64,000 nucleotides of DNA from Fervidobacterium gondwanense DSM 13020. Its GTDB lineage: Bacteria; Thermotogota; Thermotogae; Thermotogales; Fervidobacteriaceae. Shown piece by piece: positions 4,385 to 59,257 of the stretch (position 1 is the first letter of the stretch; every line of letters begins with the position of its first letter). The stretch is from assembly GCF_900143265.1 (NCBI RefSeq), contig NZ_FRDJ01000003.1, positions 1 to 64,000 of the forward strand, written 5' to 3'. The position numbers and the translations under genes were made by a program. The notes under the pieces are model-generated. The model was not told the origin of the DNA, made no database searches, and saw nothing but the letters and a program-made list of their open reading frames with translations.

Positions 4385-5307
4385 TTTGAACCACCACCTA
4401 ACAGGTTGTCGAGATTGAGGAACGTGATTTTTTGAGAATCATCCAATGTTATTATAGTTCTCGCTTTTGGCAATACCTGTTCGAGTGTTTCTATTCTGAG
4501 CCTTGTTTCTGTGATTTTTGGAGCTTTCTTGTACTCGTTGAGGATGCTCAAGAATCTTTGTGTTTCACCGGTGGCTTGGAGAATCTTCTCTTGTGCATAT
4601 GCTTCCGCTTCAAGGATTATCTTCTTAGCCTCACCTTCGACCTTAGGAATGAGGTTGTTTGCGTATTTTAAAGCTTCGTTGATGTATCTTTCCTTATCTT
4701 GCTTGGCGTTGTTTACATCATCGAAAGCAGAAATCACTGGAGCAGGCGGAACAACTTCCTGGAGCAGTACATTAATCACATAGATTCCTACGTCATAACT
4801 GTCGAGAAGTTTTTGGACTATTTCTCGGACCTCCGAAGAGACTGTATCCCTTTCAGCAGTCAATATTTCATCAACGGTCCTTCTTGCGATGCGCTCTCTT
4901 AACGCGGATTCTGTAGAGAATTTGACAAGCGCTTCAGGATTATCAACCTTGAATGCGAATTTGATAGGATCACTTACTCGGAACTGAACTACTGCCTCAA
5001 CTGAGACAATATTTCCATCTTCTGTTAGAGCCAGGGCTTCTTCCTCTTCGCTGGCATATTGACCTGGTCTCACCGTTCTGAATCCAATTTCCTGTTTCCT
5101 CACAGTCTGAACGTCGACTATGACGTGCGACTGGAATGGATAAGGTGCGTGTGCGTGTATACCAGGTCCTGTGGTATGTGAGTACTTTCCAAAGGTCTTG
5201 ATTAAAGCAACTTCTGAAGGACCAACTTGATAGACCCCCGTACCAAAATAAATAACTACAAGTACGATTAAAATAGTTAGCAAGATAGTACTTCTTTTGG
5301 TGCTCAT
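4381..5307 (-). CDS. hflK: SPFH/Band 7 protein HflK
   Basis: A 308-residue partner of HflC: one N-terminal transmembrane helix (residues about 7-25) followed by an SPFH domain (VGPSEVALIKTFGKY, GPGIHAHAPYPF) and a C-terminal helical region. It lacks the long Gly-rich N-terminal extension of the enterobacterial protein, so it is shorter. The ATG at 5307 is chosen because GAGAGGTG lies 6 bp upstream; an in-frame GTG at 5316 lies within that site. An extended -10 element just upstream suggests that transcription starts here independently of btuFC. Confidence 0.93.
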   Translation of the reverse strand: MSTKRSTILLTILIVLVVIYFGTGVYQVGPSEVALIKTFGKYSHTTGPGIHAHAPYPFQSHVIVDVQTVRKQEIGFRTVRPGQYASEEEEALALTEDGNIVSVEAVVQFRVSDPIKFAFKVDNPEALVKFSTESALRERIARRTVDEILTAERDTVSSEVREIVQKLLDSYDVGIYVINVLLQEVVPPAPVISAFDDVNNAKQDKERYINEALKYANNLIPKVEGEAKKIILEAEAYAQEKILQATGETQRFLSILNEYKKAPKITETRLRIETLEQVLPKARTIITLDDSQKITFLNLDNLLGGGSK

Positions 5308-5340
5308 GTTTGTCACCTCTCTATTTGTATGTTCAAAATC

Positions 5341-5349
5341 ATTATACCA
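5341..5349 (-). promoter_or_regulatory. Extended -10 promoter of hflKC
   Basis: The minus strand carries TGGTATAAT 34 bp before the hflK start codon. No convincing -35 hexamer is visible, as expected for an extended -10 promoter. Confidence 0.55.
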
Positions 5350-5392
5350 CGCATTTGGAAAAAAGCAGGTGTGAAAGACTCTTGAAGAACGC

Positions 5393-6397
5393 TCAGAAAT
5401 TCTTATTGCCGTTCTTCAATTTGAGCAGAACGAACATGAACGGTGCACCTATGAGGGAGGTGATTATTCCAACAGGGATTTCAACGGGGTTGAGCAATGT
5501 ACGGGCTAATGTATCGCAGATTGACATGAGCATGCCACCTAAGAGAATGGTAGCAACGATGTTGTTCCTGTGTTTCGGACCAGCTAACGTTCGTGCCATG
5601 TGCGGGACTATCAATCCAACAAATCCTATAATTCCTGTTTTTGAAACGAAAGCTGCGGTAACGAACGCACCAAGCAAGTAAAAGAGCCATTTTAGAAGCT
5701 CAACATTGACTCCCAAACTCTTCGCTTCTTTCTCGCCAAGTACCATTGCATCGAGCTGTCTGCTCATCATCATCGATAGTACGGCAAGAGTTGTTAAAGA
5801 AATTGCTGGTAGCACAATATCAGTAAATGTGATTCCGGAAAAAGAACCAAAAAGCCAGACGTGGCCTGTTACGAGTGATCTATTCGCTATATTCAAAAGG
5901 AGCATGCTCCCTGCCGAGAACATAGTGCTCACGAGTACACCGCTTAGGACTAAATGTACGGTAGGGACTATGTTGCCCTTTCTCGCAAGTGCTATAGCCA
6001 GCATAGATGCTACTACTGCGAATATGAAACTCATTGTTGGTATACTCACGTGAGCGATAGAGTTGACAATGAAGTATATGCCTAAAAGAGCACCGAAACT
6101 TGCACCAGCAGACGTTCCGATAAGATATGGGTCAACAAGTGGGTTTTTCATTATCGCTTGAAATATGTTACCTACAAGTGCCAGTGCTGAACCTGTGAGC
6201 GTTGCCATTAAGACCCTCGGAAGTCTTAAGTGCCAGAGCATGTAGCTTTCTGGAGAGTCTGAGTTTATTAATTTTATGGCTTTGATTGGGCTAACATATA
6301 CCGTCCCAAAAGAGATATTGATGAGAAAAACAAATAAGAAAAGGACAGGGAGAAGATATCTCCCTGTCTTGATTAAGAGAACCCTTAACTTAGTCAA
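5393..6397 (-). CDS. btuC: Cobalamin-type ABC transporter permease (FecCD/BtuC family)
   Basis: A 334-residue polytopic membrane protein of the FecCD family. Conserved features include LRLPRVLMATLTGSALALVG near residue 55 with the following NPLVDPYLIGTSAGA stretch, and GIIGFVGLIVPHMAR in the cytoplasmic loop that contacts the ATPase. These families import cobalamin, haem or siderophores. The upstream cobalamin riboswitch and BtuF-like binding protein point to corrinoids. The gene starts 2 bp after the binding-protein stop codon. No ATPase gene follows: the next gene is hflK, with its own promoter, so the ATPase must be encoded elsewhere. Confidence 0.88.
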   Translation of the reverse strand: MTKLRVLLIKTGRYLLPVLFLFVFLINISFGTVYVSPIKAIKLINSDSPESYMLWHLRLPRVLMATLTGSALALVGNIFQAIMKNPLVDPYLIGTSAGASFGALLGIYFIVNSIAHVSIPTMSFIFAVVASMLAIALARKGNIVPTVHLVLSGVLVSTMFSAGSMLLLNIANRSLVTGHVWLFGSFSGITFTDIVLPAISLTTLAVLSMMMSRQLDAMVLGEKEAKSLGVNVELLKWLFYLLGAFVTAAFVSKTGIIGFVGLIVPHMARTLAGPKHRNNIVATILLGGMLMSICDTLARTLLNPVEIPVGIITSLIGAPFMFVLLKLKNGNKNF

Positions 6398-6399
6398 TA

Positions 6400-7299
6400 T
6401 TATTTTCCTCCGTAGAAGAAGTTGTAGAATATATCCAAGTATTTAAAAACATGAGGTGCTGCCTGACTAATTTCGTCTCCGTCAATTACAAAGACCTTTC
6501 CATTCTTAACTGCTTTCAGGTTTTTCATTATTGAATGGTTCTTCACTGTTTTTTCAATTTCTTTTGGATCTCCATAACCGCCAATGACAATAACATCAGG
6601 ATCTTGTTTAACAAGCCATTCCCAGCTGACTGAAAGCCAGCCGTTGTTTCCTGAATAAGGAGCCGCTATGTTCCTTCCACCAGCGATAACGATGAGCTCG
6701 TTCACATATGAACCAGTACCAGCGGTCCAGAGCTCTTTGGCTTTTTCATCTGGAATTGTTATCGTGAAGAATACAGTTGGCCTGTTTTCTAATGGTATTT
6801 TTGATGTCTTTTGTCCCATTTCAGCCATCTTGTCTCTTAACTCTTGTGATATTTTGTCAGCTTTAGCCTTAATGTTAAAAACTGCGCCGAGTTGTCCAAC
6901 GGCCTTTATGATATCAGTCAATGTGTTTGCATTGAGAACGTATGCAGTAAGATTTGCTTTCTCAAGTTTCTCAACTTCTGGAAATTGGAATCCGCCAAAT
7001 GTGAACACAATATCTGGTTTTAGCGAGTAAATCTTTTCAATGTTCAGTGGTACCATGTTTCCGATGTTTTCAGCCTTTCTGTAATTATCCCATGCTGTGA
7101 CTCCAACTATTCTGTTTTCAAGTCCAAGGGCCTGCAAGTATCTTGTTGCGCTCGGTGCTGCGGATACTACCCTTCTTGGTGGCATCGGGATGTTAACGAT
7201 ACGTCCAGCATCGTCTACGACTGCTATCGCTAAGGATAAGACAGTGCTTAAGAGTACAAAAAGTGCTAAAAACCTTCTCAGTGTTCCAGACCTAAACAT
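6400..7299 (-). CDS. btuF: Cobalamin-type ABC transporter substrate-binding protein
   Basis: A 299-residue secreted binding protein. A signal peptide (FRSGTLRRFLALFVLLSTVLS) is followed by a class III binding fold: IPMPPRRVVSAAPSATRYLQALG, then VGVTAWDNYR, and DPDVIVIGGYGDP in the second lobe. This matches the BtuF/FepB family. The true start is the ATG at 7299, 9 bp after GAGGGAGG. The same frame stays open upstream to 7401, but that extension is riboswitch RNA, not protein. Regulation by the cobalamin riboswitch in the leader makes a corrinoid the likely ligand. It is co-transcribed with btuC. Confidence 0.9.
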   Translation of the reverse strand: MFRSGTLRRFLALFVLLSTVLSLAIAVVDDAGRIVNIPMPPRRVVSAAPSATRYLQALGLENRIVGVTAWDNYRKAENIGNMVPLNIEKIYSLKPDIVFTFGGFQFPEVEKLEKANLTAYVLNANTLTDIIKAVGQLGAVFNIKAKADKISQELRDKMAEMGQKTSKIPLENRPTVFFTITIPDEKAKELWTAGTGSYVNELIVIAGGRNIAAPYSGNNGWLSVSWEWLVKQDPDVIVIGGYGDPKEIEKTVKNHSIMKNLKAVKNGKVFVIDGDEISQAAPHVFKYLDIFYNFFYGGK

Positions 7300-51206: not shown

Positions 51207-53806
51207 CTGTTTTCCTCCAAGTCGTGAATTATCTGCTCGATTTTAGAAATTTGCTCGTTAAACATCTTCTGTTTTTCCCTTGTTTCCTCGACAATGTCTT
51301 CTGGTGCGTTTTTCAAGAAGTTTTCGTCTTCAAGTTTCTTGGCGAATTTCTCAAGGTCTGTTCTCAGTTTTTCGACCTTTTTCTTCAACCTTGCAACCTC
51401 AGCTTTGACATCTATCAGTGTGCCAAGCGATACATAGGTCTCAAGGTTTGGAGAGACGTACGCGGTAGCACACATCTGCGGCCTTCCCTGAACGAATTCA
51501 ATATCTTCAACATTTCCAAGGAATTTTATGTATTCTTGCTCTTCTTGGGACAGGTTACCCTTAGCATATGTCTTAACCTTTGTAGACTGAGGAACGTTGA
51601 CTTCCGCTCTAACGTTTCTCACGCCTCTTATAATTTCCATTATCTGTTCAAATCTCTTCTCGGATTCTTCGTCGATGTACTCACCAAATACCTTAGGCCA
51701 TTCAGCGATGACCAACGATTCCGTAGTAGTTGGCAACTTGGTCCAAAGTTCTTCTGTCAAGAACGGCATGAATGGATGCAAGAGTCTCAAGCTCATATCG
51801 AGCACATAGACAAGTACGTTTTGGACGGTCTTTCTCTCCTCTGTCTTAAGTCTGCTCTTCACTGCTTCGATATACCAATCACAGAGTTCATCCCAGAAGA
51901 AGTTGTAGATTTCGCTCGCAGCTATGTTGAAGTCGTAGTTATCAAGAGCTTCTGTGACTTTCTGAATAACCTTCTGCAATCTTGAAAGAATCCATTTATC
52001 GACAAGTTTGAGTTGGCTCGCTTCGATCGGCTGTTTTTCGAAGTCTTCAAGGTTCATGAGTACAAACCTTGTTGCGTTCCATATCTTATTAGCGAACTTC
52101 TTGTAAGTGTCGAAAAACCTAACGTCAAGTTTCAAATCTCTTCCCTGAGCAGCTAAGATAGCAAGGGTGAATCTCATCGGGTCTGCCCCGTATTCGTCTA
52201 TGACTTCCAGTGGATCAATGCCATTGCCAAGAGACTTGCTCATCTTCCTACCAAATTTGTCTCTTACGAGTTGGTGGATATACACTTCGCTAAACGGCTT
52301 GTCATCCATGAATTCATATCCCATCATGATCATCCTGGCAACCCAGAAGAAGATTATGTCAAATCCGGTTACCAAGACATCTGTTGGATAGTATCTTCCA
52401 AGATCAGGTGTCTTCTCGGGCCAACCCATAGTGCTGAATGGCCAAAGCGCTGAGCTGAACCAAGTATCGAGGACGTCTTCATCCTGAACAAGATGCGCAC
52501 TACCGCATTTTTCACACGCTCTTACCTCTTCTTCTGAGACGTTGTAGTGGCCGCACTCTTCACACTTCCAGACAGGAATCCTGTGTCCCCACCATAGTTG
52601 TCTGCTTATACACCAGTCCCTTATTTCGTACATCCAATTGAGATATACCTTTTTCCACCTTTCAGGAACGAATTTCACTTCTCCATTTTCAACCGCTTCG
52701 ATAGCTCTCTTTGCGAGCGGTTTCATGCTCACGAACCACTGATCCATAAGCCTTGGTTCGACAACTGTGTCGCATCTGTAACATCTGCCAACCGAATGTT
52801 TGAGTTTTTCGATTTTCACAAGATAACCCAACGCTTCGAGTTCTTCAACAACCGCTTTTCGTGCTTCCTCTGCTTTCATTCCTTTGAATTTTCCACCATT
52901 TTCGTTTATGACAATGTGTTCATCGAATATGTCAACAAATGGCAAGTTGTGTCTTTGACCTATCAGATAGTCGTTTGGGTCGTGGGCAGGTGTGACCTTC
53001 AAAGCACCGGTACCGAACGATGGATCAACGTAATTGTCCGCGATAATAGGCAGTTCTCTGCCAACGATCGGTAGAATTGCGGTCTTTCCGATGTATTTTT
53101 TATACCTCTCGTCTGATGGATGAACAGCCACAGCTGTATCGCCAAGCATCGTTTCTGGTCTTGTTGTGGCTATGACCAAGTAATCATCTTCACCTTTTAT
53201 TGGATACTTGACGTGGTAAAGCGCGCCTTCTTCTTCGTGATAGTCAACTTCTTCATCCGAAAGCACCGTACCGCACCTGTGACACCAGTTCACTATGTAT
53301 TTGCCTTTGTATATTAACCCTTTCTTGTACAAATCAACAAAGACCTTTCTGACAGCTTTTGATAATCCTTCGTCTAACGTGAATCTTTCTCTTGTCCAGT
53401 CAACAGAAGCACCGATTGACATTATCTGCTTTTTAATCTCATTTCTGTACTTATTTGCCCAGTCCCACACGATTTCGAGGAATTCTTCCCGCGAATAATC
53501 CCTTCTGCTCTTACCTTGTGTTGCAATGTATTTCTCAACGGCTGTTTGTGTGGCTATACCTGCGTGGTCTTCGCCTGGAAGCCAGAGCACGTCAAAACCC
53601 TGCATTCTCTTGTACCTGCTAAGTATATCTTGAATAGTTATATTGAGTGCGTGTCCCATATGGATTCTTCCAGTTATATTTGGCGGTGGGATTACTATAC
53701 TGTACTTTGGTCCTGCTCCTTTTGGAGTGAAATATTTCTTTTCGAACCATTGCTTGTACCACTTCATCTCGATATTCTGTGGTTCATAACGTGTTCCTAT
53801 CTCCAT
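51203..53806 (-). CDS. valS: Valyl-tRNA synthetase
   Basis: An 867-residue class I enzyme. The HIGH-type motif is PPNITGRIHMGHALN (about residue 42) and the KMSKS loop is GRKMSKSLGNG (about 520). The CP1 editing domain has TTRPETMLGDTAVAVHP. Cys pairs CHRCGTVLS, CYRCDT and CEECGHYN...CEKCGS look like zinc sites. A C-terminal coiled coil (about 800-867) contacts tRNA. The ATG at 53806 follows GGAGGTG; the in-frame TTG at 53821 overlaps that site. The upstream small gene overlaps the valS start by 23 bp. Confidence 0.97.
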   Translation of the reverse strand: MEIGTRYEPQNIEMKWYKQWFEKKYFTPKGAGPKYSIVIPPPNITGRIHMGHALNITIQDILSRYKRMQGFDVLWLPGEDHAGIATQTAVEKYIATQGKSRRDYSREEFLEIVWDWANKYRNEIKKQIMSIGASVDWTRERFTLDEGLSKAVRKVFVDLYKKGLIYKGKYIVNWCHRCGTVLSDEEVDYHEEEGALYHVKYPIKGEDDYLVIATTRPETMLGDTAVAVHPSDERYKKYIGKTAILPIVGRELPIIADNYVDPSFGTGALKVTPAHDPNDYLIGQRHNLPFVDIFDEHIVINENGGKFKGMKAEEARKAVVEELEALGYLVKIEKLKHSVGRCYRCDTVVEPRLMDQWFVSMKPLAKRAIEAVENGEVKFVPERWKKVYLNWMYEIRDWCISRQLWWGHRIPVWKCEECGHYNVSEEEVRACEKCGSAHLVQDEDVLDTWFSSALWPFSTMGWPEKTPDLGRYYPTDVLVTGFDIIFFWVARMIMMGYEFMDDKPFSEVYIHQLVRDKFGRKMSKSLGNGIDPLEVIDEYGADPMRFTLAILAAQGRDLKLDVRFFDTYKKFANKIWNATRFVLMNLEDFEKQPIEASQLKLVDKWILSRLQKVIQKVTEALDNYDFNIAASEIYNFFWDELCDWYIEAVKSRLKTEERKTVQNVLVYVLDMSLRLLHPFMPFLTEELWTKLPTTTESLVIAEWPKVFGEYIDEESEKRFEQIMEIIRGVRNVRAEVNVPQSTKVKTYAKGNLSQEEQEYIKFLGNVEDIEFVQGRPQMCATAYVSPNLETYVSLGTLIDVKAEVARLKKKVEKLRTDLEKFAKKLEDENFLKNAPEDIVEETREKQKMFNEQISKIEQIIHDLEENR

Positions 53807-54215
53807 CCTGTGCACCTCCAACAGTTGTAATTTCTATTTGACAATCGATTTTTATCTTTTCTGGGCCGTAAGTTAGAAGTAAATAGTGTAGAGAGTCTCT
53901 TATTCTGTCTGCAATCTTCTTAACTTCAGCGTCCTGAATACCGTGAAGAACTATACAGAAATCGTTGTTATCCAATTTGCAGACAAAATCCTTTGGGATT
54001 CGCACGCTATGCTTAATAACTGAAGACACCCTTGACATAACAAAATTCCAGATATCGTTATTGGAAACTTGAAAATCAAGTTTCAAGTGCATAACATAAA
54101 AGAGTTCATTGTTTTCCTTAAGTTCCTGCAATACCATTTGTGCAAATTCTTTATTCGGCAAACGCGTGATTGGATCCACCCATTCTCCGGTGAGTAACTT
54201 ATGCAGACTTGGCAT
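53784..54215 (-). CDS. Stand-alone degenerate GGDEF-like protein
   Basis: A 143-residue protein matching a lone GGDEF fold by eye: DPITRLPNKEFAQMVLQEL resembles the DxLTGLxNR start, and FVCKLDNNDFCIVLHG sits where RxGGDEF would be, reading LDNNDF. Both glycines of the signature are replaced and the metal-binding Asp of the first motif appears as KLDF, so catalysis is unlikely. It could bind a nucleotide or act as a protein partner. There is no membrane segment. It is the first gene of the valS operon, with AAGGAGGTGG before the ATG, and overlaps valS by 23 bp. Confidence 0.75.
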   Translation of the reverse strand: MPSLHKLLTGEWVDPITRLPNKEFAQMVLQELKENNELFYVMHLKLDFQVSNNDIWNFVMSRVSSVIKHSVRIPKDFVCKLDNNDFCIVLHGIQDAEVKKIADRIRDSLHYLLLTYGPEKIKIDCQIEITTVGGAQDGDRNTL

Positions 54216-56907: not shown

Positions 56908-56938
56908 AGCAGGGGCGAATGCCCCTGCTGATTTTTTT
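56908..56938 (+). terminator. Rho-independent terminator
   Basis: A 9-bp GC-rich perfect stem AGCAGGGGC / GCCCCTGCT with a GAAT loop is followed by GA and seven Ts. Confidence 0.92.
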
Positions 56939-57230
56939 CAGTACATTTTTCACTCTCTGGGTTTGGAGCATTAAGTTTAGAGCATTCAGTGGTACAGAAC
57001 TATCGATGGGATACTTAGTAGGAGTGACTTGATAGGTGCGGCATCATGTATTACCGTTCTCTTTAACTACGTGGAAGATACTTTGATCAAACAATAACCA
57101 CAGGTTTAGAAAACTGTTTTCTTGTTTGCTGTAGAAAATAAATGTGTTAAAATTGGTTACTCTTTTCAAAGTAAAAAGTGGTAAAATACTATCAAAGGCA
57201 AGTTGGAGATAGTCCATGGAGGCTGATAAT
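56939..57230. other. Intergenic region with possible gene remnant and promoters
   Basis: About 290 bp without a convincing gene. Frame 56981-57097 (plus) is open for 38 codons, has no start codon, and encodes a protein-like IDGILSRSDLIGAASC...LFNYVEDTLIKQ before its stop; it may be a decayed gene end. Two candidate promoters for the B12 sensor gene follow: TTGCTG-16 bp-TAAAAT (57126-57153) and an extended -10 TGGTAAAAT (57179-57187). Confidence 0.4.
57179..57187 (+). promoter_or_regulatory. Extended -10 promoter of the B12 sensor operon
   Basis: TGGTAAAAT lies 43 bp before the chosen start. An alternative promoter (57126-57153) sits a few tens of bases upstream. Confidence 0.5.
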
Positions 57231-58253
57231 ATGGAAAGTGTGAAGTTAGACCTTAATAGTGCATTCGAAATGTCGAAACGGGCGTTTGAAGAACTTTACA
57301 AAAATGAAAAGCATCTCTTTGAAAATCTAAACGACGAAAAGGTTGAGTTATGTAGAAAGGATGTGTACTATCACACATCCTTTCTCATTCAAGCGATAAA
57401 CTTAGATTCAAAACCTCTATTCGAAGACTACACAAAATGGGTCTTCGAATTGTTCAAGAGTTTGGGAATATCTTTTGAAAGTTATGTTATAAGTTTGAAC
57501 TACATTTTGTCTGTTATTAACGATACATTTGGAGAGGGTATTGCTAAGGTTGCGAGAAAGTTTCTAAACGATTCGATAGAATTTTACAAGAATGAAGAGA
57601 AAGTTATTCAAAACTCAAACCCACTTCAAGATTACAAGGAGCAATACAAAAAACTATTACTTCAAGGTGATAGAAGGAGCGCGAGTAAGCTTATAGATGA
57701 GCTAATAAGTAAGGGAGTTGGTGTTAAGGAAATTTACACTTACATTTTCAGAGAATCGCTCTATGATATTGGTCTTTTGTGGCAAACAGGGAAGATCAAT
57801 GTTGCCCAAGAACATTTCTTCACTGCTGCAACACAGATGATAATGACGCAGCTGTATCCATATATATTCACTCATTTGAAAAATGGTCATACAATTGTAG
57901 GAGCTTGCGCAAGCGGTGAGTTGCACGAAATAGGTATTCGAATGGTCTGTGATCTTCTTGAAATGGATGGGTACAACACCCACTTTTTAGGTGCAAGTAC
58001 TCCAGCACAGGGAGTTGCAGATTATGCTTATTTCAAAAAAGCCGAAGCTATCTTGCTCTCAGTTACTTTGAGTATAAATCTCGAAAGTTTGCGAAAGACT
58101 ATAGAAGTTCTTAGAGCAGACGATAGGCTTAAGGGTTTGAAAATAATTGTCGGAGGAAGGCCCTTCACACTCGATCCGGAACTATATGCAAAAGTCGGTG
58201 CGGATTACTCTACAACAAATGTTGAAGAACTAAAAAGAATCATCGAGCAGTAA
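57231..58253 (+). CDS. Cobalamin-binding sensor with CarH-type W-x9-EH motif
   Basis: A protein of about 340 residues. Residues 1-125 are helical with no recognised motif and no MerR DNA-binding domain. A B12-binding helical cap follows (about 135-205) with LYDIGLLWQTGKINVAQEH: W189, E199 and H200 (numbered from the ATG at 57216) give exactly W-x9-EH, the signature of AdoCbl-dependent light-sensing domains such as CarH. The Rossmann B12 domain has GACASGELHEIG with the probable lower-ligand His237, LGASTPAQ and a final VGGRPF. The ATG at 57231 follows GGAGG by 8 bp; ATG at 57216 is an alternative. A diguanylate cyclase gene starts 20 bp downstream, its likely output partner. Confidence 0.88.
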   Translation: MESVKLDLNSAFEMSKRAFEELYKNEKHLFENLNDEKVELCRKDVYYHTSFLIQAINLDSKPLFEDYTKWVFELFKSLGISFESYVISLNYILSVINDTFGEGIAKVARKFLNDSIEFYKNEEKVIQNSNPLQDYKEQYKKLLLQGDRRSASKLIDELISKGVGVKEIYTYIFRESLYDIGLLWQTGKINVAQEHFFTAATQMIMTQLYPYIFTHLKNGHTIVGACASGELHEIGIRMVCDLLEMDGYNTHFLGASTPAQGVADYAYFKKAEAILLSVTLSINLESLRKTIEVLRADDRLKGLKIIVGGRPFTLDPELYAKVGADYSTTNVEELKRIIEQ

Positions 58254-58273
58254 TTGTTTGGAGGTAAACATAC

Positions 58274-59257
58274 ATGTCTGGATTGGAGAAAACAATAGTT
58301 TGCATAGATGAAAATGGGAGAATAATCGACGTATTAACCGATGATTTTAAGGTGTTTGCAGGTTCTAAAGCAGATACTGTTCTTAATGTGCTGGATGATG
58401 GAAGCAGAACAAAATTCTTAGCTTTTCTCGTTGATCTCAAGGAAAGCGAAGTTCAAGTGAACTGGGACATGAATTTCAAGGTTGATGACAAAATAATTGA
58501 ATTTCTCGTTTCTGGAAAAATGCTCAAGAACGAGTGTATATATCTTATTATATTGACACGGATAGTAGCAGAACTAAAGAAATTATACGAAGATTTGAGC
58601 ACCATTAATAATGAGCAGATAAACCAATTTAGGAGAATAATAAAAGAATACGCAGAAAAACAGAACAAAATATATCTCGAACTTATTGAAGAAATTTCAA
58701 AGCTTAACAACGAACTTACGAATACTCAGCGAGAGCTAATGAAAAAAACGCTTGAGTTAGAAGAATTGAATAAAAGGTTATCAGAACTCGCCACAAAAGA
58801 TGCTCTCACCGGATTGTACAACAGGCGAGTTTTCAACGAAATAATCGAAAAAGAAATATCGAGAACTCGAAGGTTCAATCAAGAGCTCACAATAATATAC
58901 ATGGACATCAACAACTTTAAGATTGTTAACGATACGAAGGGACATAGTGAAGGTGATAAGCTTCTAATTGAGTTCGGCAAGATACTGCTTTCTTCAACTC
59001 GTTACAACGTGGACTATGCATTTCGATTCGGTGGTGACGAATTTCTTTTGTTATTGGTAGGTTCAAATGAGGAAGATGCTGTGAAAGTTGCTGAAAGGAT
59101 TCAGAGAGAAGTATCTAAGATAAGCGATATTGTGTCGGTTGCGTATGGAATAAGGGAGATTGATATTTCTCAAGAAGTGAACATTGATGAACTCCTTCGA
59201 GAAGCGGATAAGCTCATGTACGAACACAAAAGAAAAATGAAGGCAAAGCAAGTATAA
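58274..59257 (+). CDS. PAS-like/coiled-coil/GGDEF diguanylate cyclase
   Basis: A 327-residue cytosolic protein. An N-terminal PAS-like domain (about 5-95) is joined by a long coiled coil (about 100-175) to a GGDEF domain: DALTGLYNRRVF, IYMDINNFKIVNDTKGHSEGD and FRFGGDEFLLL. All residues expected for c-di-GMP synthesis are present. The R-x-x-D inhibitory site is not in place (YNVD). GGAGGT lies 9 bp before the ATG. The 20-bp gap to the B12 sensor gene implies co-transcription and a shared pathway; direct contact through the helical cap and coiled coil is an inference. Confidence 0.92.
   Translation: MSGLEKTIVCIDENGRIIDVLTDDFKVFAGSKADTVLNVLDDGSRTKFLAFLVDLKESEVQVNWDMNFKVDDKIIEFLVSGKMLKNECIYLIILTRIVAELKKLYEDLSTINNEQINQFRRIIKEYAEKQNKIYLELIEEISKLNNELTNTQRELMKKTLELEELNKRLSELATKDALTGLYNRRVFNEIIEKEISRTRRFNQELTIIYMDINNFKIVNDTKGHSEGDKLLIEFGKILLSSTRYNVDYAFRFGGDEFLLLLVGSNEEDAVKVAERIQREVSKISDIVSVAYGIREIDISQEVNIDELLREADKLMYEHKRKMKAKQV

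Follow-up and report, generated by a model that had tools for sequence, protein, structure and literature searches.

The gene at 57231-58253 of Fervidobacterium gondwanense DSM 13020 encodes a photocobilin-type sensor, in which a bilin-type globin is followed by a B12-binding domain, and the next gene encodes a diguanylate cyclase that appears to be its dedicated partner. We consider it probable that the two proteins form a photocobilin system in which photolysis of AdoCbl changes the sensor's contact with the stalk of the cyclase. The window analyzed is the 64,000-nucleotide stretch at the start of contig NZ_FRDJ01000003.1. A first-pass annotation of this DNA had described a CarH-like B12 sensor wired to a cyclase; that interpretation was largely right in spirit, and it is mainly the name that changes, from CarH-type to photocobilin-type sensor with a dedicated partner.

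The sensor gene and its B12-binding part

The sensor ORF lies on the plus strand, with its final sense codon ending at 58250 and the ORF at 58253. It has two candidate starts, ATG 57216 (345 aa) and ATG 57231 (340 aa), and a GGAG-type site precedes both of them. All sensor residue numbers given here are counted from ATG 57231. The first-pass annotation had named W189, E199, H200, and His 237; these residues are present, but their numbers count from 57216, whereas the coordinates given with them began at 57231. Renumbered, they are W184, E194, H195, and H232. The features of the sensor and its upstream border are as follows.

56908-56929, plus strand: terminator-like hairpin 3' of rlmD, setting rlmD apart from the sensor-cyclase unit
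57231-58253, plus strand: whole sensor gene, photocobilin-type, globin first and B12 domain last
57216-57623, plus strand: bilin-type globin (photoglobin/phycobiliprotein-like), taken from the alternative start, assigned by profile search, AF2 helices, and alignment
57351-57353, 57360-57362, and 57438-57440, plus strand: globin residues C41, D44, and W70, respectively
57639-57854, plus strand: four-helix B12-binding_2 cap (Pfam PF02607), with GLLW (W184, 57780-57782) and EH (E194-H195, 57810-57815)
57891-58208, plus strand: Rossmann-type B12-binding domain (Pfam PF02310), with H232 (57924-57926) in GELH, and G254ASTP258

The hairpin after rlmD is strong and thus fits a separate two-gene unit of sensor and cyclase. 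A gene for a flavodiiron-type protein lies downstream of the pair, and in two congeners (G001 and G003) rlmD lies near the flavoprotein gene with no sensor-cyclase pair between them, so the pair has been gained or lost at one site. Elsewhere in the window, at 53784-54215 on the minus strand, a 143-aa stand-alone protein resembles a degenerate GGDEF domain with KLDNNDF replacing GGDEF; it has an ortholog in a third congener, G008 (locus L033, 11259-11678).

Pfam placed the cap at sensor residues 137-208 (2.8e-15) and the Rossmann part at residues 221-326 (1.6e-19), and it returned no MerR domain, as the first-pass annotation had held. The claimed W-x9-EH motif is present with the right spacing (W184-x9-E194H195), and so is the lower-ligand histidine 37 residues past the histidine of EH (H232, in E230LH232). 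Among 32 aligned relatives, W184, E194, H195, H232, and G254 are invariant and P258 is found in 28; that the key W/E/H/H residues are kept in every one argues against a chance motif. The proposed signature of light-responsive cobalamin domains, GxxW, EH, GxxH, and GxxxP (PMC11796333), is complete in the sensor, and exemplar proteins bearing this signature reacted to light in the SignatureFinder study.

Comparisons with known structures indicated which family is nearest. The top PDB sequence matches of the sensor were SasPcob (2.1e-21) and AbPcob (8.4e-19), along with the light-responsive CtMerR B12 domain, whereas CarH was a far weaker match (2.5e-7). The AlphaFold (AF2) model of the sensor (pLDDT 84) matched SasPcob with Z 26.1 and 2.2 A over 206 residues, the aligned region being about 130-340, and it matched CarH with Z about 21.8. 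The arrangement that had been read as the AdoCbl light-sensing domain of CarH is therefore a B12 photosensory-type domain, with the predicted fold and AdoCbl-pocket residues that it shares with CarH (TtCarH), but both PDB sequence and structure place photocobilins nearer. We rejected membership of CarH itself because the MerR domain is absent and the CarH equivalog model scored 65 bits where the cut-off is 400.

The pocket differs from that of CarH at one further position. CarH His132 forms the bis-His light state, and the residue at this position is Gln both in the sensor (Q185) and in SasPcob. By this sequence comparison, a SasPcob-type light state with water-ligated cobalamin would be a nearer model for the sensor than the large movement of CarH.

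Some further observations concern the distribution of such domains. No relatives of the sensor were found in a scan of viral contigs, and no match to it was found in PHROGs. One Thermotogota genome (G065) carries a stand-alone B12 domain with W-x9-EH, with neither a globin nor an adjoining GGDEF gene (L052, 5988-6704, minus strand).

The globin domain and its candidate bilin site

The N-terminus of about 125 residues had been called unfamiliar, and as a single query it gave only weak matches, to Phycobilisome, ApcB3, and the AbPcob globin. When 30 such N-terminal domains were combined in one profile and searched against all PDB chains, the matches included allophycocyanins (1.7e-5) and the globin domains of SasPcob (4.4e-5) and AbPcob (3.2e-4). 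The Pfam Phycobilisome family was matched by 4 of the 30 domains (best 5.7e-11), and AF2 predicted five helices in the domain of the sensor. Judged by the sequence profiles and the predicted helix pattern, the N-terminus is a phycobiliprotein/photoglobin-type globin, and the description as unfamiliar did not survive the 30-sequence profile.

Equivalences to SasPcob residues were taken from the offset of the PDB sequence alignment and the published residue names, with W61 as anchor. D44 aligns with SasPcob Asp270, which binds biliverdin, and W70 with Trp296, which contacts biliverdin as well as the corrin. W70 is present in 32/32 relatives and D44 in 26/32 (missing in 6/32). AbPcob is without the biliverdin-pocket Asp, so this residue is not strictly required of photocobilins. 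In an alignment to ApcB3, C41 falls at the phycobilin-attachment position, with C41-R-K-D44 where phycobiliproteins have C-x-R-D. The characterized photocobilins lack a Cys at this position, unlike the sensor here.

An additional chromophore might thus be considered: AdoCbl together with a linear tetrapyrrole that the globin carries attached via C41, conferring red-light sensitivity, with the bilin scavenged from phototroph neighbours. This would be a sub-case of the two-protein photocobilin explanation rather than a competitor to it, and we regard it as decidedly improbable. It would suit the attachment-site motif, the retention of D44 and W70, and the occurrence of Fervidobacterium in phototrophic mats; the corresponding motif is C-L-E-D in a congener and C-L-Q-D in locus L123, the latter matching the CXQD reported for photoglobins. 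However, Cys occupies the C41 position in just 4/32 relatives and hence is not a family requirement, and AbDPcob keeps its light control despite a decayed bilin site. The supply of bilin is a further objection. Searches of 20 genomes of the family, and of 11 further carriers and relatives, yielded no heme oxygenase, and HutW (TIGR04107) gave matches only below its cut-off, as it did in nearly all control genomes. Endogenous bilin is therefore unlikely. With no heme oxygenase found, any bilin would need to be scavenged, and B12 may act alone; by analogy with AbDPcob, in which this is largely so, AdoCbl without bilin may suffice for the sensor.

The partner cyclase, its stalk, and conserved pairing

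The partner gene, at 58274-59257, starts 20 bp past the sensor stop and encodes a 327-aa protein with the following features.

58274-58570, plus strand: PAS-like N-terminal region, residues 1-99, from the AF2 beta-alpha-beta pattern
58571-58798, plus strand: conserved helical stalk, residues 100-175, INNEQ-N-R ... ISKLNNELTNTQRELMKK, the proposed sensor contact
58793-59254, plus strand: GGDEF diguanylate cyclase domain (Pfam PF00990, 7.5e-37), with RFGGDEF intact at 59030-59044

The Pfam match and the complete RFGGDEF agree with what had been said of this gene, namely that a GGDEF protein with an intact active site follows the sensor after 20 bp. In the AF2 model of the partner, a PAS-like front leads through a long helix to the GGDEF domain, and the best Foldseek match of this model was SiaD. 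The PAS-like region distantly resembles other partners, one of them the kinase partner at locus L057 (6e-4). The canonical RxxD I-site is absent, with R243-x3-D247 in its stead; this replacement of the inhibitory R-x2-D upstream of GGDEF (window 59000-59030) is shared by the two nearest relatives of the partner.

We gathered relatives by sensor score alone and read their neighbours afterwards. This yielded 39 intact globin-B12 sensors, from 8 Thermotogota genomes, a Mollicutes-related class (about 24), Armatimonadota (6), and Bacteroidota (1). In 38 of the 39, a partner directly adjoins the sensor on the same strand, the two genes overlapping slightly or lying a short distance apart: 31 are GGDEF proteins, 6 are histidine kinases, and 1 is cut by a contig end. 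The sole sensor without a GGDEF or kinase neighbour is in Armatimonadota (L127, 4164-5351), where a transaldolase-like gene follows. In the congener G008 (L033), sensor and partner stand in the opposite order and overlap by 8 bp, so the association has persisted through a reordering of the genes.

Three loci were kept outside the 39. Two (L054 and L137) have broken sensor frames beside partner genes, and at the third (L057) the sensor has no recognizable globin in any frame. The last of these, at 4521-6889, nevertheless presents a B12 sensor, its N-terminus not recognizably globin, and the kinase that follows it has the stalk seen in the other partners.

Conservation of the same gene pair across phyla, rather than its absence from related genomes, strongly supports a dedicated pairing of sensor and cyclase. 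That the two genes stay adjacent points to a functional link; it does not speak to direct contact or to the sign of the effect. It also bears on a more ordinary identity for the sensor, that of a corrinoid shuttle of a methyltransferase system lying beside a GGDEF gene by chance. Weak profile matches to the MtbC, MtgC, and MetH corrinoid domains might suggest as much, but no corrinoid-type methyltransferase lies nearby, the W/E/H residues of the adenosyl pocket are invariant, a globin domain is present, and a GGDEF or kinase gene adjoins the sensor in 37/39 loci, with one truncated partner besides. We rejected the shuttle as a general explanation on the conserved pairing and gene context, and for this sensor we hold it to be very improbable.

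Two observations concern the cyclases themselves. At L034 (5108-8256, minus strand), an EAL phosphodiesterase gene lies directly upstream of sensor and cyclase, and enzymes that make and break c-di-GMP appear to share one operon there. Many partner cyclases of the Mollicutes-related class have AGDEF or SGDEF for GGDEF (L135, L136, L138, L140-L142, L145, L146, L148, and L150-L152), a consistent change that may alter cyclase activity or product.

The stalk is what the two kinds of partner have in common. Residues 100-175 matched both GGDEF and kinase partners, at about 30 loci in all. Among 1278 sequences, real and shuffled, no other ORF and no decoy matched, even though a handful of further GGDEF and kinase genes lie in the tested loci. 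When the PAS and stalk module was searched in 103 genomes of the phylum, it was strong only in this genome and G008, and weak in the sensor carrier G052. Two genomes without a full-length sensor match gave 8.5e-5 and 3.9e-4, which we read as coiled-coil noise, and the divergent partners of G010 and the Mesotoga-like genomes fell below the threshold. The simplest reading of these matches is that the stalk would be the receiving surface for the sensor, and the output domain behind it exchangeable.

Proposed mechanism and relation to known systems

In the two-protein photocobilin system that we favour, the sensor would bind AdoCbl base-off/His-on via H232, the adenosyl group being surrounded by W184, E194, and H195. 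Illumination with green light, or with red light should the globin carry a bilin, would cleave the Co-C bond and release this group, and its loss would shift the helix of E194 and H195 together with the self-association of the sensor. The altered sensor surface would then act on the helical stalk of the PAS-like/stalk/GGDEF partner and so set c-di-GMP synthesis. By analogy with AbDPcob, a fused photocobilin-cyclase whose activity rises more than 10-fold in light (PMC10979010), the cyclase would have low activity with AdoCbl bound in the dark and gain activity upon illumination. We infer the loading with AdoCbl or bilin, the light response, the direct contact, and the control of the cyclase, including its direction.

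Several observations fit the scheme. Photocobilins that are separate proteins affect cyclase activity in trans (PMC10979010), and AbDPcob illustrates that a bilin site can decay while light control persists. The genome encodes an AdoCbl-forming adenosyltransferase, so AdoCbl should be available to the sensor, and it encodes PilZ proteins, which can read c-di-GMP. Fervidobacterium occurs in lit, phototrophic hot-spring mats, which makes a light cue plausible.

The main rival is a corrinoid-status or redox/oxygen sensor, in which AdoCbl occupancy, or AdoCbl loss by oxidation or by thermal Co-C cleavage at high temperature, would be relayed to the cyclase or kinase stalk. Many of the carriers (among them the Mollicutes-related and Mesotoga-like genomes) are, we infer, probably anaerobes of dark places, for which light is no evident cue. 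The lack of heme oxygenase in the carriers searched also suits a status sensor, as does the cyclase of AbDPcob, which even in the dark differs according to whether AdoCbl is bound. Against this, the sensor keeps all residues of the published light-responsive signature, whose exemplars did respond to light, and the mats in which the host genus occurs are lit. We therefore judge a status sensor unlikely, though a serious contender.

The photocobilin-type system proposed here can be set beside four known ones. It shares with the photocobilins (SasPcob and AbDPcob; PMC10979010) the B12 cap and Rossmann domain, the W/EH/ExH motifs, the bilin-type globin, and the link to a diguanylate cyclase. It differs in its globin-first order, in having the cyclase as a protein of its own, co-encoded with the sensor and bearing a conserved stalk, and in that heme oxygenase was not found. 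Photocobilin groups that carry the B12 domain N-terminally and others that carry it C-terminally have already been recognized (PMC10979010), so the globin-first order is not new by itself. From CarH it is set apart by the missing MerR domain, the Gln for His132, and the low model score described above. SiaC switches the cyclase SiaD in trans by binding its helical stalk (PMC8457831), which is the kind of switching proposed here, and SiaD is the closest structural match of the partner. Unlike the sensor, however, SiaC is not a B12/globin protein, and the partner here has a PAS-like N-terminus; by sequence, the resemblance would lie in mode of action only, and the sensor is not of SiaC type. BBAG-2 clusters (PMC10151467) likewise link a bilin-type globin functionally to a B12-binding protein, but there the two are separate genes accompanied by heme oxygenase and bilin reductase, whereas here globin and B12 domain share one chain and heme oxygenase was not found.

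We tentatively suggest, with somewhat more doubt than confidence, that these pairs make up a distinct, phylum-spanning class of two-protein B12 photoreceptors. It would be defined by a separate globin-B12 sensor, a conserved stalk joined to cyclases or kinases, and no recognized heme oxygenase, with AdoCbl used alone or bilin obtained by an unrecognized route. The pairing of sensor and cyclase genes may in part already be described in an earlier survey of photoglobins (PMC8717448).

The photocobilins characterized so far comprise a fused cyclase and a stand-alone sensor without a known natural target. The pairs described here supply such a natural target, a gene dedicated to a stand-alone sensor of photocobilin type and conserved across phyla, and so open the trans mechanism to testing. 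They also raise the question of what role a B12/bilin-type photoreceptor plays in anaerobes without heme oxygenase, and they offer a heat-stable, two-part switch from light to c-di-GMP or from light to kinase.
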